Below, piece after piece: positions 7,391 through 25,121 of a stretch of DNA of 55,894 bases. The first letter of the stretch is position 1, and each line of letters starts with the position of its first letter. The stretch is from contig CADBCY010000022.1 of NCBI GenBank assembly GCA_902793325.1, forward strand, positions 1 through 55,894, read 5' to 3'. The notes below the pieces were generated by a model, which was not told the origin of the DNA, made no database searches, and worked only from the letters and a program-made list of their open reading frames with translations. The translations under genes were made by a program, and so were the position numbers. The stretch is from an uncultured Eubacteriales bacterium. Its GTDB lineage: Bacteria; Bacillota; Clostridia; Christensenellales; Aristaeellaceae.

Positions 7391-8446
7391 ATGATGCGCG
7401 ATTTTCGCTACCTGTCGCGGCGCATAACCGCGTTTGCCTGCCTCGTCGCGGCGGCGGCGCTGCTGCTGGCGCTGTCCGCGTACCTCGCGGGCAGGGACCC
7501 CGCCCGTTTCGGCATAGTGGGCTGGGCGGTGCTGCTGCTGTCGGCCATCGGCCTGCCCGCGCTGGGGTATTACCGGATCTACCGCCCCTACTGCCAGGGC
7601 CGCGACGCCCTCCGGCGGTTTATCGAGGGCTACATCTCGGTGCACGAGCTGCGGGACATGGCCGTGCAGCCCTCCCCGGAGATCGAGCGCTTCATCCGCG
7701 CCATCGACGGCGCCATGTCCACCATGCGCAACCTGGACCTGTCCAAGCGCCAGGCGCAGTACCGCGCGCTGCAGAACCAGATCAACCCCCACTTCCTCTA
7801 CAACACGCTGGAGGGCATCCGCAGCGAGGCGCTGATCGCCGGGCTGGACAGCCTGGCGGACATGACGGAGGCGCTGGCCGCGTTCTTCCGCTACACCATC
7901 AGCAAGGTCGAGAACCTGGTCACGGTGGAGGAGGAGCTGGAGAACTGCCGCACGTACTTCAAGATCCAGCAGTACCGCTTCGGAAGCCGCCTGCGCATGC
8001 AGATCGACATCGACCCCGGGGACGAGCGGGAGATCCTGCGCTGCCTGATCCCGAAGCTGACGCTGCAGCCCATCCTGGAGAACAGCATCATCCACGGCAT
8101 CGAGCTGAAGCTCGGCGAAGGGCACGTGCGCATCGACCTGAGCCGCAGCCAGAGCCGGCTTCTGATCTCGGTGCAGGACGACGGCGTGGGCATGGGCCGG
8201 GAGGCGCTCCGGCAGCTCAACGACAAGCTGGGCTCCAAGGAAGAGGAGCTCCGGGACATGACCCATGAGGAGCGGGGCGGCATCGCCCTGACCAACGTGA
8301 ACAACCGCATCCACCTGATCTTCGGGGAAGCCTACGGCATGCACGTCTACTCCGTGGAGGGCGAGGAGACCACCGTGGAGCTGACCATCCCCGCGGTGAC
8401 GGAGGAGAACGCGCTGATCGACGGAAAGCGCAGGGGGTTGGAATGA
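7391..8446 (+). CDS. Short YesM-type sensor histidine kinase without an extracellular sensor domain
   Basis: 351 aa, well short of the 570-600 aa usual for YesM. Two membrane helices at about residues 11-33 and 40-63 are separated by only about six residues, so there is no room for an extracellular ligand domain. The His_kinase motif INPHFLYNTLEGI carries His134, and a GHKL ATPase domain follows (PILENSIIHGIELK, DDGVGMG, GGIALTNVNNRI). Two adjacent ATGs (7391, 7394) are possible. No clear ribosome site is visible, and the stop of the regulator lies nine bases upstream, suggesting coupled translation. The gene overlaps the next by four bases (ATGA). Without its own sensor the kinase probably reads the state of a partner, perhaps the importer through the downstream protein. 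Confidence 0.88.
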   Translation: MMRDFRYLSRRITAFACLVAAAALLLALSAYLAGRDPARFGIVGWAVLLLSAIGLPALGYYRIYRPYCQGRDALRRFIEGYISVHELRDMAVQPSPEIERFIRAIDGAMSTMRNLDLSKRQAQYRALQNQINPHFLYNTLEGIRSEALIAGLDSLADMTEALAAFFRYTISKVENLVTVEEELENCRTYFKIQQYRFGSRLRMQIDIDPGDEREILRCLIPKLTLQPILENSIIHGIELKLGEGHVRIDLSRSQSRLLISVQDDGVGMGREALRQLNDKLGSKEEELRDMTHEERGGIALTNVNNRIHLIFGEAYGMHVYSVEGEETTVELTIPAVTEENALIDGKRRGLE

Positions 8447-14499: not shown

Positions 14500-14543
14500 G
14501 CAAGCGCCGGCCTCCGCCCGAACGGGCGGAGGCCGGCGCTTGC
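14500..14543. terminator. Bidirectional terminator between GH51 and NAT genes
   Basis: A 21-bp inverted repeat (arms 14500-14520 and 14523-14543) 14 bases after the GH51 stop, lying between convergent genes. Confidence 0.75.
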
Positions 14544-18026: not shown

Positions 18027-19808
18027 ATGTACCAACTGCCCAACGATCTGCGGCGCGCATACGAAGCCCTGCCCGTCCCCCTCGCCTTTTACCGGTACGA
18101 GGAAGGTCGGGTCTTGACTGTGCTCGTCTCCGACGGCCTGTGCCGGCTGATGCAATCGGATCGGGAAACGCTGATCGGCCTGCTGGACAACAGCATGTTC
18201 GAGCGCGTGCACCCCGACGACGCGGAGCGGATCGCGCGCATCGGCGATGCGTTTGCCCGCCATGAGGGCGACTACGACGTGTTCTACCGCAGCCGCTACG
18301 GCGAGGAGACGAGGTACACCACCATCCACACCGTGGGCCGTTGGCAGACCATGCCCGACGGCACGGAGCTGGCGGTGCTGGTCTACGTCGACATCTCCGA
18401 CAGCTACGACGCCTTCGCGCAGTTGTCCGACCACTACGAGCTGTTCCAGCGGGACTACTTCTACAACGACCCCGTGACCGGCCTGCCGAACCTCAACTAC
18501 GTGCACGAGTTCGCGGACGAGAAGGTCCACCGGCTGCGGCAGGAGGACCGCGACCCCGCGCTGCTGTACATGGACGTGAAGGGCCTGCGCTCCTACAACA
18601 ACCAGTACGGCTACTCCCAGGGCGACGAGCTGCTGCAGCTGATCGCCGAGGTGCTGAAGGCCGAATTCCCCGACGCGCTCATATGCCGCGGCGCGGACGA
18701 CCACTACGTCGTCATCTGCGCATACGAGAGCGACGAGGACCTGGTGAGGCGCATCGACCGCGTCAACAGCAGCGTCAAGGCGCGCGCTTTCGGCAACACC
18801 TTGGGCGTGCAGGCGGGCATCTGCGTGCTGGAGCCCAGCTCGACGTTCACGGACGCCTTCGACCACGCCCGCCACGCCCTCAAGCAGATCGGCAACGACC
18901 TCAACGCCACCCACCTGTTCTACGCCCAGGAGACGGACGAGAAGTACTGGAACCAGCGCTACATCGTCGAGGCCTTCGATACCGCGCTGCAGCAGAACTG
19001 GATCAAGATCTACTACCAGGCCATCATGCGCACGGCGACCCACAAGGCCGCCGCGCTGGAGGCGCTGGCCCGCTGGGTCGATCCCGTCCGCGGCATCATC
19101 TCCCCCGCGGAGTTCATCCCGGTGCTGGAGAAGTACCACCTGCTCTACAAGCTGGATCTGTACATGGTGGAGCGGTTCTGCCGGGAATTCCCGGTTCGCC
19201 AGAAGGTGGGCCTGCCCATCATCCCCGTCACCGTCAACTTCTCCGCCCAGGACTTCGACCACGCGGACATCGTCGCCAGCCTGAACGAGATCCTCGACCG
19301 CTACGGCGTGGCGCACGAGAACCTCATCATCGAGATCACCGAGCAGGACATCGCCACCGCCACCGAGCACTTCAAGGCCCAACTGCGGGACATCCGCCGC
19401 AACGGCTACCGGCTGTGGCTGGACGACTTCGGCAGCGGCTATTCGTCGCTGAACGTGCTCAGCCAGTTCGACATCGACCTGGTGAAGTTCGACCTGGAGC
19501 TGCTGCGGAACCTGGACGACCACGACGGCGCAAACCGCCACATCATGCGCGCGATCACGGGCGTGCTCCACCAGTTGGGCATCCACACCCTGGCGGAGGG
19601 CATGGAGACCAAGGCGCAGCTCGCGTTCCTGCAGGAGATCGGCGTCGGCTTCGCGCAAGGCTTCCTCTTTTACAAGCCCGAATCGCTGGATTCCATCTGC
19701 TTCAAGATGGCGAAGGGCAACCCCATCGTGCCCTGCGAGACCGCCGAGGAGCGCGCGGATTTCCGCCGTCAGTGGGAGGCCGAGGTCCGCGCGAATCGCT
19801 CGAAGTAA
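18027..19808 (+). CDS. PAS-GGDEF-EAL protein, probable cyclic di-GMP phosphodiesterase
   Basis: 593 aa. A PAS domain covers about residues 10-130 (FERVHPDDAERIARIG). The GGDEF domain is degenerate (CRGADDHYVV in place of RIGGDEFVV), so cyclase activity is unlikely. The EAL domain keeps its metal and catalytic marks: EALARW, VNFSAQDF, IEITEQD, LDDFGSGYSSLN, LVKFD and LAEGMETKAQ. It should hydrolyse cyclic di-GMP, with the broken GGDEF perhaps sensing GTP, as known for related proteins. AGGAGG precedes the start. It forms a two-gene unit with the cyclase upstream and ends at a strong terminator. Confidence 0.9.
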   Translation: MYQLPNDLRRAYEALPVPLAFYRYEEGRVLTVLVSDGLCRLMQSDRETLIGLLDNSMFERVHPDDAERIARIGDAFARHEGDYDVFYRSRYGEETRYTTIHTVGRWQTMPDGTELAVLVYVDISDSYDAFAQLSDHYELFQRDYFYNDPVTGLPNLNYVHEFADEKVHRLRQEDRDPALLYMDVKGLRSYNNQYGYSQGDELLQLIAEVLKAEFPDALICRGADDHYVVICAYESDEDLVRRIDRVNSSVKARAFGNTLGVQAGICVLEPSSTFTDAFDHARHALKQIGNDLNATHLFYAQETDEKYWNQRYIVEAFDTALQQNWIKIYYQAIMRTATHKAAALEALARWVDPVRGIISPAEFIPVLEKYHLLYKLDLYMVERFCREFPVRQKVGLPIIPVTVNFSAQDFDHADIVASLNEILDRYGVAHENLIIEITEQDIATATEHFKAQLRDIRRNGYRLWLDDFGSGYSSLNVLSQFDIDLVKFDLELLRNLDDHDGANRHIMRAITGVLHQLGIHTLAEGMETKAQLAFLQEIGVGFAQGFLFYKPESLDSICFKMAKGNPIVPCETAEERADFRRQWEAEVRANRSK

Positions 19809-21778: not shown

Positions 21779-22855
21779 ATGAAATTCATTCTGGAATTCC
21801 TCCGCCAGAAGGTCCCGAAGCAGGGCAGGGAAATGCCCGTGTACTTCCGCAGGGCCCTGGTTTCATGCGAGTGGCTCATGGCAGTCTACCTGCTCGTGAG
21901 CTTCTTCCTCATCGAGGTCTTTGCCCATAAATGGACGATCATGCCGCTGTTCCTGTGCGCGGGCCTGGTCGCCTGCGTGCTGAACGTCGACCGCATGCGG
22001 GTGCGCATGAACCTGGTGCTCTACGCGCTCACCACGCTGGTCTGGTGCGGCTGGTACATCAACGCCTTCGGCTGGGGCATCGGCGGGCAGCACGTGCTGG
22101 TGCCCCTGCTGGTGCTGGCCTTCTTCGACATCTACGAGCCGCCGCTGCTCAAGCTGGCCTACTTCCTGCTGCTCGTGCTCGTCCGCATGGCGCTGTTCTA
22201 CTACGCCCTCAGGCACCCCGCGACGTTCGAGGTGACGCAGACGGCGAACATCGTGTTCCAGATGTTCAACAGCTTCACCTATTTCGTCATCCTGGCGGTG
22301 CTCTGCATCAGCTTCAGCAGCAGCATGCAGGACACCGAGCGCCAGCTTCGCATCGACAACCAGGAGCTCCACAAGGAGGCCGGCACCGATCCGCTCACCC
22401 GGCTGCCCAACCGCCGCGCGATGATCGACGAGCTGGACCTGTACCGCCGGAGCTCGCCGGACGAGTCCTTCTGCGTGGCCATCGCCGACATCGACTTCTT
22501 CAAGCACGTGAACGACACCTACGGCCACAACTGCGGCGACTACACGCTGCGCGCGCTGGCCGACCTGTTCCGGGAGAACGCGGGGCTGAAGTACCGCGTC
22601 TGCCGGTGGGGCGGCGAAGAATTCTGCTTCTTCTTCCCCGGCATGAACCTGGACGAGGCGGGCCGCGAGATGCTCGACCTGAACGTCGCCGTGGGCCACA
22701 TGCCGCTGAGCTTCGAGGGCAACGACTTTTCGATCACCATTACCATCGGCGTGGAGGAAAACGACTTCAAGTCGCCCATGGAAAGCATCCTGGAGCGGGC
22801 GGACCAGAAGCTCTACATGGGCAAGAACTCCGGTCGCAACCAGGTCGTCATCTGA
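21779..22855 (+). CDS. Membrane diguanylate cyclase (GGEEF)
   Basis: 358 aa. About six membrane helices lie in residues 28-185 (WLMAVYLLVSFFLIEVF to FVILAVLCISFSSS), with no recognised ligand domain. The GGDEF domain begins GTDPLTRLPNRRAM and carries CRWGGEEFCFFF, an active variant. No RxxD inhibitory site is present. Several features match the 15436-16509 protein (membrane bundle then cyclase), but the sequences differ. ATG 21779 has a modest GGAAGG upstream. It has its own promoter with a tandem repeat at the transcription start, so it is probably regulated separately from the other cyclases. Confidence 0.9.
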   Translation: MKFILEFLRQKVPKQGREMPVYFRRALVSCEWLMAVYLLVSFFLIEVFAHKWTIMPLFLCAGLVACVLNVDRMRVRMNLVLYALTTLVWCGWYINAFGWGIGGQHVLVPLLVLAFFDIYEPPLLKLAYFLLLVLVRMALFYYALRHPATFEVTQTANIVFQMFNSFTYFVILAVLCISFSSSMQDTERQLRIDNQELHKEAGTDPLTRLPNRRAMIDELDLYRRSSPDESFCVAIADIDFFKHVNDTYGHNCGDYTLRALADLFRENAGLKYRVCRWGGEEFCFFFPGMNLDEAGREMLDLNVAVGHMPLSFEGNDFSITITIGVEENDFKSPMESILERADQKLYMGKNSGRNQVVI

Positions 22856-23012
22856 CGCCCGGCCCCGCCGCGTTCCCCTTTCCGCCAGACGGCGACCCGA
22901 CCGCACGTCAACAACCTCGCGCGCGCTGCAGGGCTTCCTGTTCTCCAGGCCGCTCCCGCCGGATGTGTTCGTGCAGCGGTACCGCCAATGACATCGTGAA
23001 AGGAAGGATACC

Positions 23013-23324
23013 ATGTTGATCGTCACCACGGAAACCATCCCCGACAGGAGCTACGAGGTATTGGGGCTCGTCCAGGGCAGCACCATACAGACCGTCAACG
23101 TCGTGCGGGACATCGGCTCGGGCCTCAAGACGCTCATCGGCGGCGAGCTGACCAAGTACACCGACATGATGGCCAAGGCCCGTCAACTGGCCACGGACCG
23201 CATGGCGGAGGAGGCCGCGCGCATGGGCGCGGACGCCGTGGTGTGCGTGCGCTACTCCTCCGCGTCCGTCATGCAGTCCGCGGCGGAGGTCATGGCCTAC
23301 GGCACCGCCGTGCGGCTGAAATAG
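23013..23324 (+). CDS. UPF0145 (YbjQ-type) protein
   Basis: 103 aa, full length for the UPF0145 / YbjQ family (small pentamer-forming proteins of unknown role, sometimes called putative heavy-metal-binding). Family marks are VLGLVQGSTIQTVNVVRDIG, LVTKYTDMMAKAR-like TKYTDMMAKARQLA, and GADAVVCVRYSSA. AGGAAGG precedes the start. No promoter was found in the 157 bases after the cyclase gene, so it may be read through from that gene. No function can be given. Confidence 0.85.
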   Translation: MLIVTTETIPDRSYEVLGLVQGSTIQTVNVVRDIGSGLKTLIGGELTKYTDMMAKARQLATDRMAEEAARMGADAVVCVRYSSASVMQSAAEVMAYGTAVRLK

Positions 23325-23369
23325 CGCCGGCGGCGGGCACGTCCGGGCGAACATATCGTTAATTTCATA

Positions 23370-23398
23370 TTGACATTTTGCAAGGAATCGGTTATACT
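23370..23398 (+). promoter_or_regulatory. Promoter of the candidate small RNA
   Basis: Perfect TTGACA (23370-23375), 17-base spacer, TATACT (23393-23398), in an A/T-rich island. No protein-coding gene lies downstream on this strand, only the hairpin RNA. Confidence 0.8.
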
Positions 23399-23404
23399 GG
23401 AACC

Positions 23405-23582
23405 AAGGAATCGATATTGCCGCTAACAACCGCTTTTTCCCCGGCGCCGTCTGCCTCCTCCGCAACCTCGGACGACGCCACAACGCTTCTGTGTCGCCCT
23501 CCACCCCTCCGCAAAAGAGGGCGACGCCTCCCTCCCCAGGCGCCATCCGCCTCCTCCACAAACCCGGATGGCGCCATTTTTG
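23405..23582 (+). ncRNA. Candidate small RNA with three hairpins, each with a 15-nt C-rich loop
   Basis: Between a strong promoter and a hairpin plus T-run lies a transcript of about 178 nt with no ribosome site. Hairpin 1 (23443-23479), hairpin 2 (23493-23525) and hairpin 3 (23539-23575) have stems of 11, 9 and 11 bp, and each loop is exactly 15 nt: CCTCCTCCGCAACCT, CACCCCTCCGCAAAA and CCTCCTCCACAAACC. The shared loop core CTCCRCAA with CCTCC is complementary to GGAGG ribosome sites. Hairpins 1 and 3 are diverged copies with a G-C to A-T pair change in the stem, which keeps pairing. Hairpin 3 with TTTTT (23577-23581) is the terminator. A C-rich linker (23526-23538) is also single-stranded. 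I infer an RNA that binds Shine-Dalgarno regions or a protein. Confidence 0.75.
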
Positions 23583-23619
23583 TGCCGCGGAGGCGCCGCC
23601 AACGCCCCATCACGCAACA

Positions 23620-23645
23620 GAACGGCCCCGAAAGGGGCCGTTCTT
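23620..23645. terminator. Hairpin between the small RNA and the convergent GGDEF gene
   Basis: GAACGGCCCC and GGGGCCGTTC around a GAAA loop, 27 bases past the minus-strand gene stop. It probably ends the minus-strand cyclase transcript and blocks read-through from the small RNA. Confidence 0.65.
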
Positions 23646-23672
23646 GCCTGTATTATATATCTTCGCTTTCCC

Positions 23673-25025
23673 TCACGCGCTCACCCGGCAGCCGCAGCCG
23701 CCGCTGTTCTTCACCTCGTACAGGGCGGCGTCCGCGTCCCGGAAGACCTCCTCCGCGTCCCCGCTCATGGCGCCGAAGGCCACGCCGCTGCTGACGTGAA
23801 CGGGCGGAAGGTCGCCCTCCGGCCGGTTCAGCGCCTCGTTGATCCGCGCCACCTTGCTGCGGATCAGCTCCCCGAGCTCCGCGCCCGCGTGCACCATGAT
23901 GACCGCGAACTCGTCGCCGCCGATGCGGCACACGTAGTCCTGCGAGCGGAAGCAGTTGCGGATCGTCGCCGCCACCTTGGCCAGCACCCGGTCGCCCGTC
24001 TTGTGGCCGAGGCTGTCGTTGACCTGCTTGAACTTGTCCACGTCGAACAGCAGCAGCGCCGAGGTCTTCCAGTCGGTGTTCTTCATGAAGAAGTCGTAGC
24101 CGCTGCGGTTGTAGATGCCGGTGAGCTGGTCGTGGGTGGCCTCGTAGGCCAACTGCTCCTTCTGCTCCCGGTTGGCCTCGTACATGAGGTTATAGGTCTT
24201 TGCCAGGAACTGGAATTCGTTGGAGCCCTTGATGGGGATGGGCTCGTCCGCGCGAATGTACATCACGGCGCGCAGCAGCGGGCTGATGACCAGCAGCAGC
24301 GTCAGCAGCATCGTGAACATCGTGATGCCGATGGCGAGGATGATCAGCAGCCGCTGCTGGGCCAGCAGCGCGTGCAGCCGGTCCGCGATGCTCTGCTGCT
24401 GGCCGTCGATGTCGTTCGCCAGCGCCTCCAGGCATTTCTGCATGTTCTTGGAGATCAGGTCCTTGCACGCATGGTACACCTCGTCGAACACCTTCGAGCG
24501 GCCCAGCGCCTCCTGGCGCTCCCGGGGCAGCAGGGCGTCCTCCTCCGTCAGCTCCACGCGCCGGATCTCCTCGGGGTATTCGTCGACGTCGTACCCGTAG
24601 CCCGCGATGGTCAGCCGCATAGCGTAGTACTCCCGGTCCATCAGCTTCACCGAGGCGTCCATGGCGGCCTGCATGGCCTTATGGGCGTCGGTCTCGCCCA
24701 GGAATTCCCGGATGTGGTCCAGGGCGAGCTCGCGGCGGCGGGTGACGTGGGCTTCCTCGAAGTAGTTATCGAGGTATTCGCGCTTGCCCGTCTCCACAAA
24801 GCAGCGCACCTGTTCGGTGAGGTAGTCGGAGGCGGTCTGCAGGTCGTAGGCATAGCGCTGCCACTGGATGTAGTGCTCCGTGTTGGCGCGCATCCGGATA
24901 TAGCCGGTATTGGCGCGATAGGTCGCCAGCAGAAGCAGGACGGAGATGATCACCGTCACCACGGCCATGGTAAAATTCAGGTTCCGAATGGAAATCCCTT
25001 TCTTGCCGTGTCCGTGCTTATTCAT
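23673..25025 (-). CDS. Diguanylate cyclase with extracytoplasmic helical sensor
   Basis: 450 aa. Membrane helix at about residues 17-37 (FTMAVVTVIISVLLLLATYR), then a charged extracytoplasmic region of about 210 residues rich in predicted helices, then a second helix (LLIILAIGITMFTMLLTLLL) and a short linker. The GGDEF domain (THDQLTGIYNRSGYD; CRIGGDEFAVIM) is intact and has the inhibitory site RSQD five residues before GGDEF. The C-terminus ends NSGGCGCRVSA, where the family usually has NGRNR, so two extra cysteines are present. ATG 25025 is preferred over ATG 25031 because GGAG lies eight bases before it. Confidence 0.88.
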   Translation of the reverse strand: MNKHGHGKKGISIRNLNFTMAVVTVIISVLLLLATYRANTGYIRMRANTEHYIQWQRYAYDLQTASDYLTEQVRCFVETGKREYLDNYFEEAHVTRRRELALDHIREFLGETDAHKAMQAAMDASVKLMDREYYAMRLTIAGYGYDVDEYPEEIRRVELTEEDALLPRERQEALGRSKVFDEVYHACKDLISKNMQKCLEALANDIDGQQQSIADRLHALLAQQRLLIILAIGITMFTMLLTLLLVISPLLRAVMYIRADEPIPIKGSNEFQFLAKTYNLMYEANREQKEQLAYEATHDQLTGIYNRSGYDFFMKNTDWKTSALLLFDVDKFKQVNDSLGHKTGDRVLAKVAATIRNCFRSQDYVCRIGGDEFAVIMVHAGAELGELIRSKVARINEALNRPEGDLPPVHVSSGVAFGAMSGDAEEVFRDADAALYEVKNSGGCGCRVSA

Positions 25026-25121
25026 GTACATAACTCCATATCGCGATTTCAAACGGCGCCGCGGCCGGGACGAACGCCTCGTCCGGCGACGAAACCCCAT
25101 TTTTTCCAATTACTCTTGCTT

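Follow-up and report, generated by a model that had tools for sequence, protein, structure and literature searches.

A predicted triple-hairpin RNA with anti-Shine-Dalgarno loops in an uncultured Eubacteriales bacterium

The locus and its hairpin array

The window, a stretch of 55,894 nt from an uncultured Eubacteriales bacterium, contains an element between a gene of the YbjQ family and a convergent gene for a GGDEF domain protein. On the plus strand it is made up of three successive hairpins, preceded by a promoter-like sequence and followed by a run of T. The features of the locus are as follows.

23013..23324, plus strand: upstream neighbour gene, YbjQ family (PF01906), by Pfam match
23370..23398, plus strand: promoter of the sigma-70/A type, TTGACA-17-TATACT, in an AT-rich stretch, matching the consensus at 11 of 12 positions
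23405..23442, plus strand: predicted 5' leader, largely unpaired in the fold, with its start placed from the -10 box
23443..23479, plus strand: hairpin 1, with 11 stem positions, of which 10 pair and one is a C-A mismatch, and the 15-nt loop CCUCCUCCGCAACCU, from fold and sequence
23491..23527, plus strand: hairpin 2, with 11 bp and the 15-nt loop CACCCCUCCGCAAAA, its stem mostly unlike those of hairpins 1 and 3, from fold and sequence
23528..23538, plus strand: spacer 2, CUCCCUCCCCA, C-rich and resembling an anti-Shine-Dalgarno (aSD) sequence, with CCUCC at 23531 and a mean unpaired value of 0.70
23539..23575, plus strand: hairpin 3, with 11 bp and the 15-nt loop CCUCCUCCACAAACC, from fold and sequence
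23576..23582, plus strand: T-run ATTTTTG 3' of hairpin 3, from the sequence
23619..23644, strand not assigned: second GC-rich hairpin between the convergent genes, 11 bp with a GAAA loop, from a fold of 23405-23645
23673..25109, minus strand: downstream convergent neighbour gene, GGDEF domain protein, by Pfam match

The promoter is the sole one of its form in 22800-23800, where shuffled sequences give 0.1 on average, and the 60 nt upstream of 23405 have a GC content of 38% as against 66% for the window. The promoter alone is no proof, because 17 promoter-like sites with at least 10 of 12 matches exist on the two strands of the window, nine of them with at least 11 of 12. Initiation at this promoter would yield an RNA of about 175-180 nt ending at hairpin 3, which probably doubles as the terminator stem; the T-run behind it is short and its loop unusually large for a terminator. 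The GC-rich hairpin at 23619-23644 is a possible back-up or shared terminator.

Three GGDEF-domain proteins, one of which also carries an EAL domain, are encoded around the element (18027-19808, 21779-22855 and 23673-25109). Contig C24 of this genome encodes a paralogue 66% identical to the last of these, and the 414 nt folded behind that paralogue contain no array of the kind described here.

The geometry of the array is strict. Each hairpin occupies 37 nt (11 stem, 15 loop, 11 stem), the spacers are 11 nt long and the period is exactly 48 nt. All three loops share the core CCUCCRCAA, an anti-Shine-Dalgarno sequence with an RCAA tail, which begins one base later in loop 2. Six of the eight CCUCC sites fall wholly within predicted unpaired positions, and spacer 2 would, according to the fold, provide an additional mostly unpaired C-rich stretch resembling an aSD. 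Of the 69 unpaired array bases, 39 are C and 3 are G; about 0.1% of the 134-nt stretches of the window reach a skew of -0.36. An initial annotation of this DNA had described a near-consensus promoter, three hairpins with loops of exactly 15 nt, a loop core preceded by C bases and a final T-run, all of which are present. Stems 2 and 3 are each paired at 11 of 11 positions; the annotation overlooked the mismatch which leaves stem 1 at 10 of 11.

Such an array is not readily produced by chance. The fold of the 178-nt region has a z-score of -4.88, which none of 200 shuffles equalled, and none of 2000 dinucleotide shuffles contained any triple of hairpins of such size. In 440,895 bases of the organism's own genome (the window plus 20 stretches), hairpins with 11 stem positions, at most one mismatch and a loop of 10-20 nt containing CCTCC have 112 distinct starts. 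The sole pairs of such hairpins 30-80 nt apart in these bases are the two within the array, so that the loop core, which the initial annotation had suggested seeking elsewhere in the genome, recurs in this arrangement nowhere else in the 441 kb. By simple arithmetic, about 0.7 pairs and 0.005 triples would be expected from 112 starts. Triples of hairpins with equal loops but without the motif occur on 49 other locus-strands in 1.6 Mb of loci; among the 20 that were listed, 15 lie in loci chosen by repeat pattern and five do not. A hairpin triple as such is thus nothing special; what sets the array apart is its motif, loop size and period taken together.

Comparison of the three copies bears on whether pairing has been kept while the stems changed. 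Between hairpins 1 and 3 there are 7 differences over 37 positions. Their stems are related by one compensatory change from G-C to A-U and one change from U-G to C-G, and the C-A mismatch of hairpin 1 corresponds to a C-G pair in hairpin 3; the remaining three differences are in the loop and leave CCUCC untouched. The view of stems 1 and 3 as diverged copies is thereby upheld. Hairpin 2 is far more distant, differing from hairpin 1 or 3 at 25-26 of 37 positions in an ungapped register, 16 of these among the 22 stem bases. When the arms of stem 2 are crossed with those of stem 1 or 3, just 3-5 of 11 positions pair, compared with 10-11 of 11 within copies, whilst the crossed arms of stems 1 and 3 still pair at 11 and 9 of 11. 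Stems 1 and 3 by themselves are therefore weak evidence for kept pairing. Stem 2, set against stems 1 and 3, constitutes a built-in test of structure held under sequence change, and here the sequences indicate that pairing is retained despite that change, as evidence inside one molecule. The earlier claim of conserved pairing thus holds among the copies of one molecule, and weakly for the comparison of stems 1 and 3 on which it had been based.

Distribution of the element

Searches for relatives of the array gave negative results. BLASTN with most of the element detected no homolog among the 27 congeners. Nine of the 28 genomes, the organism's own included, had some match with E<=0.1; besides the element itself these matches span 20-37 bp, and none of nine loci inspected shows a hairpin array. 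A covariance model built on hairpins 1 and 3, termed R1, gave matches with E<=5 in 27 of the 28 genomes, of which those below 0.008 are hairpins 1 and 3 of the locus itself only. The covariance-model search of related genomes proposed in the initial annotation hence returned no homolog in the 27 congeners, with a model that is a weak test and blind to strongly diverged stems: R1 missed hairpin 2 genome-wide, and within the window scored it at 20.7 bits compared with 21.4 bits for an unrelated palindrome at 14506.

A looser pattern of two loop cores was matched in 81 of 300 family genomes, the organism's own among them, and by eye its reversed control is similarly frequent. Thirty of these places were inspected, and one, locus L050 in family genome G052, has hairpins of 11 bp and 9 bp around the core. 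It was rejected as a homolog: dispersed GGAACGGAGGGACGG palindromes account for its C-rich part, and the R1 match, just 12.9 bits, falls elsewhere in the locus. At about 1465-1720 L050 carries repeated palindromes of the GGAACGGAGGGACGGTCTTTTTCGTTCC type with adjoining CCTCCGCAA, which resemble a dispersed terminator-like repeat. A pattern of paired CCTCCTCC motifs occurs in 195 of 300 genomes, and the places listed are by eye mostly low-complexity coding sequence; its reversed form is no control, since it is identical to the pattern itself.

The flanking genes did not lead to further arrays. The YbjQ gene was found in 33 genomes besides the organism's own, and the 450 nt downstream of it contain no array in the flanks of ten of these; the GGDEF neighbour was matched in 19 other genomes, and eleven loci of its relatives, taken on both strands, have no pair of CCTCC-loop hairpins. 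Phage and plasmid collections returned five and six records respectively, with short pieces only (22-42 bp among the ten matches listed). Viral contigs had no match to a specific pattern and 45 stretches matching a triple-core pattern, which also occurs in at least 118 stretches of public genome contigs, a set that may not include the organism's own genome. When these 163 stretches were ranked by their stems, two arrays from Butyrivibrio, a Nocardioides repeat and locus L208 stood beside or above the window. L208 (about 7740-7930, from a Clostridia metagenome-assembled genome of horse faeces) consists of alternating palindromic TTGTGGA/TCCACAA repeats, which also fold into long hairpins. Among 335 loci on both strands, three CCTCC-loop hairpins (no more than one mismatch over 11 positions, loop of 10-20) were found on two locus-strands, L077 and L127, both rejected since they look like coding repeats; the criterion is strict, and the Butyrivibrio arrays escape it. 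As the searches of genus, family, flanks, phage, plasmids and viral contigs gave no homolog, the element is an orphan within searchable sequences, known so far from one genome.

Proposed function and competing explanations

The reading of the plus-strand element as non-coding, with multivalent anti-Shine-Dalgarno potential, is supported by its anatomy and by published functional parallels. It seems reasonably likely that it specifies a lineage-specific, trans-acting small RNA which masks Shine-Dalgarno regions redundantly through its three loops, independently of Hfq. In such a mechanism the RNA made from its own promoter would use rigid stems to display the three loops of 15 nt, in each of which CCUCC would be accessible and RCAA would come next. 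Any of these loops would be able to pair with a UUGYGGAGG-like Shine-Dalgarno region of a target mRNA and so block ribosome binding, the loops being presumably redundant and the pairing Hfq-independent. Judged by its anatomy, the candidate would act like NfeR1. No match to Hfq was found in the organism's own genome, which is 95% complete, and none to CsrA in the 28 genomes of the genus, its own included, whilst the control search matched CsrA in 3 of 14 genomes. This lack of Hfq and CsrA matches fits a pairing RNA that works without a chaperone and speaks against an antisense CsrA sponge.

The initial annotation had suggested predicting targets by extended pairing to TTGYGGAGG, and such start sites are not enriched: TTGYGGAGG-N2-14-RTG occurs 16 times in the genome versus 63 times for the reversed pattern, and TTGCGGAGG-N3-12-ATG five times versus eight for the reversed control, with 3-17 in congeners. 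The duplex of a loop with a bare Shine-Dalgarno sequence is predicted at about -10, compared with a mean of -7.9 for shuffled loops, 32% of which reach -9; the energy advantage is modest. Duplex energies at eight start regions nearby were set aside because some of the starts had been guessed. Of the 16 TTGYGGAGG sites, one is simply hairpin 3 read on the minus strand, and three resemble genuine gene starts by eye. The candidate targets are a YqfC-like sporulation protein (43.3 bits, below the cut-off of 77.8), a SCIFF ranthipeptide precursor (79.1 bits, cut-off 50) and a YloV-family protein (590.3 bits, cut-off 396.1, and below the FakA equivalog cut-off). The best loop duplexes at these starts have energies of -22.0, -18.2 and -15.1 kcal/mol respectively, which give no independent support as the genes were picked by the motif. 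The start of the SCIFF precursor gene (contig C33, locus L277, start at 1185) has an 11-bp match to loop 3. SCIFF peptides are associated with Clostridia, and the presence of the precursor fits a host from that class.

A structural role at the boundary between two convergent genes would dispense with any action in trans: the array would be a terminator or boundary element, its loops C-rich since G would upset the stems. Its position between such genes, the stem and T-run at its end, the second strong hairpin behind it and the failure of BLASTN and R1 to find homologs in the genus genomes all agree with this. A terminator has no need of a near-consensus promoter of its own or of a 9-nt core shared by three loops, however, and a single hairpin would suffice; nor is there another pair of CCTCC-loop hairpins at this spacing in the 441 kb of genome. 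This explanation is accordingly considered unlikely.

The loops might alternatively be a decoy for a protein which binds C-rich single-stranded RNA, such as a KH-domain or cold-shock type protein or Rho, with multivalency provided by near-identical and evenly spaced loops. The exact 48-nt spacing and equal loops would suit an array of bound proteins, Shine-Dalgarno pairing does not require the RCAA that follows CCUCC, and the lack of target enrichment points the same way. Against this, Hfq and CsrA, the two partners sought, gave no match, Shine-Dalgarno pairing already explains CCUCC, and the published analogues considered work by base pairing. A decoy function is distinctly unlikely. Of the two functions put forward in the initial annotation, it is therefore the masking of ribosome sites that is favoured, by anatomy and by published parallels, over the titration of a single-strand-binding protein.

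Whether the element belongs to a known RNA family was also considered. No Rfam model reached its gathering score anywhere in the window. With a loose threshold, seven weak matches were listed for 23340-23660, led by E-value by two aSD small RNAs, both far below their cut-offs: ar14 (RF02344) at 23.4 bits and E 0.015, with a gathering cut-off of 58.8, and CcsR1 (RF02791) at 16.2 bits and E 0.15, with a cut-off of 65.3. On this basis the element might truly belong to the ar14/cuckoo family of Alphaproteobacteria, whether acquired horizontally or very diverged; it also resembles that family in having three hairpins, aSD loops and variable stems like those of NfeR1, and three hairpins with an aSD motif in each loop are what the family definition describes (PMC10746234). 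That definition further has an ultraconserved CCUCCUCCC in each loop, however, and the loops of the candidate hold CCUCCUCCG, CCCCUCCG and CCUCCUCCA instead. The ar14 model exceeded its cut-off in none of 150 relatives, in a search whose strict filters left 21 of 482 own-genome candidates scored and in which the locus itself was not listed at E<=1. Matches resembling ar14 with E<=1 occur in 36 of the 150, down to 1.8e-4, and none of 20 such loci viewed has three CCTCC-loop hairpins. True membership of the family is very improbable. Because membership fails on both score and loop motif, the candidate is regarded as an independent look-alike of ar14, and likewise it lies outside CcsR1 by score.

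Peptide coding, which the initial annotation had named as grounds for refutation if conserved in related genomes, is highly improbable. A small protein gene or repeat-coding region could be imagined, given that the 48-nt period equals 16 codons and that long open frames exist on both strands. The initial statement that there is no ribosome site is nearly right, yet AAGGA lies 7 nt 5' of a TTG at 23417, at the extreme 5' end of the predicted transcript. The frames are nevertheless not codon-like: GC3 in the plus frames through the element is 0.59-0.71 (0.64 in the TTG frame) versus 0.91-0.94 in three neighbouring genes, and the differences between hairpins 1 and 3 are spread over all three codon positions. 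In addition, neither of the two frames tested matches a Pfam family, and the plus open frame continues into the antisense of the GGDEF gene. Least credible of all is a CsrB-like CsrA sponge on the minus strand, lying for instance within the GGDEF gene's 3' UTR, with three GGA-loop hairpins: the stems pair on either strand and the reverse-complement loops read GCGGAGGAGG and similar, but the CsrA that sponges of the CsrB/RsmZ type presuppose is matched in none of the 28 genomes and the opposite-strand fold is weaker against shuffles (z -2.96 versus -4.88), with loops partly paired in the MFE structure, less so in the centroid.

Comparison with known systems

Type III toxin-antitoxin RNAs consist of tandem near-identical repeats followed by a toxin gene on the same strand. 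The element was rejected as an RNA of this type, the next gene being that of the convergent GGDEF protein and Tandem Repeats Finder listing no array. The nearest look-alikes are 52-nt tandem hairpin arrays in two Butyrivibrio genomes (loci L113 and L122), which share with the candidate a regular array and CCTCCRCAA in the loop, and which are treated as a separate lead. In L113 five of six copies carry this core in the loop, and in L122 three of six; R1 scores up to 29.3 bits, a value biased because the arrays were chosen by loop pattern. Unlike the candidate, they are near-identical tandem repeats with loops of 18-20 nt, unrelated stems and no shared neighbourhood. The arrays lie at 5766-6067 of L113 (5.8 copies of 52 nt) and at about 3280-3580 of L122. 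It is the minus strand that carries their CCTCCRCAA loops, and in both genomes a 272-aa gene with no Pfam match follows directly downstream. Their loop sequence drifts between copies. Such an array may represent a minisatellite; alternatively, it may specify a repeat RNA that is partnered with the gene behind it.

In Firmicutes, LhrC1-5 of Listeria bind an mRNA start region through three CU-rich CUCCC sites, which act redundantly and of which one lies in the terminator loop (PMC4132741). The candidate resembles LhrC in having three C-rich sites, one of them in what is probably the terminator loop, whereas LhrC comprises two stem-loops and a single-stranded site, exists in five copies, is irregular and has CUCCC with a run of U as its motif. 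IsrR of Staphylococcus likewise has three C-rich regions which pair with Shine-Dalgarno sequences (PMC9410917). These are of unequal importance, however, being neither identical nor all in loops nor fully redundant, and IsrR has three stem-loops with a separate terminator and comes from an AT-rich genome. The mycobacterial 6C/B11 small RNA has two C-rich loops, either of which is enough to repress one target (PMC10470900); it differs from the candidate in its two loops, in being directed at a six-G tract in the target and in its actinobacterial host. Finally, PmaR of Agrobacterium has a C-rich loop whose action is mostly positive and away from the ribosome site (PMC6234868), so that a C-rich loop need not imply Shine-Dalgarno blocking.

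The closest parallel is with the alphaproteobacterial ar14 or cuckoo RNAs (NfeR1, SmelA075) and CcsR1. The ar14 RNAs have three hairpins whose stems differ greatly and which each leave a CCUCCUCCC aSD motif unpaired. In NfeR1 these three motifs are redundant on start regions, and this RNA is ranked among the Hfq-independent small RNAs (PMC10746234, PMC7143759, PMC3927594). The candidate shares with the ar14/cuckoo RNAs and CcsR1 the three hairpins, the CCUCC-containing aSD loops, the variable stems, the sigma-70 promoter and, presumably, the lack of a need for Hfq. It differs in its loop core, CCUCCRCAA in place of CCUCCUCCC, in its strict 37-nt hairpin and 48-nt period, and in its host, which is probably a member of the Clostridia rather than the Alphaproteobacteria. 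The initial annotation had drawn a sharper contrast with known RNAs than is warranted, since the cuckoo/ar14 architecture itself consists of three aSD hairpins. In the literature searched, from which most subscription journals are absent, no description of a comparable RNA from Clostridia was found.

An evolutionary scenario can be proposed, which is rather doubtful. The element may be a multivalent aSD RNA of recent origin, specific to Clostridia, which arose by hairpin duplication at a fixed 48-nt spacing, with subsequent stem diversification under selection for structure, in a host with no detected Hfq or CsrA and independently of the cuckoo family. If it is transcribed and active, a three-loop anti-Shine-Dalgarno design would have arisen independently outside the Alphaproteobacteria, in a lineage with no detected Hfq, and such an RNA may be born within a single genus. 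Were the scenario true, the fixed geometry and RCAA extension would mark a new kind of multi-site RNA for Shine-Dalgarno masking. Given the three GGDEF proteins nearby, the RNA might conceivably touch c-di-GMP control. Small RNAs with several aSD loops are already known, as is the three-hairpin form in Alphaproteobacteria; with its 48-nt geometry and CCUCCRCAA loops, the candidate looks like an independent variant upon this common theme.
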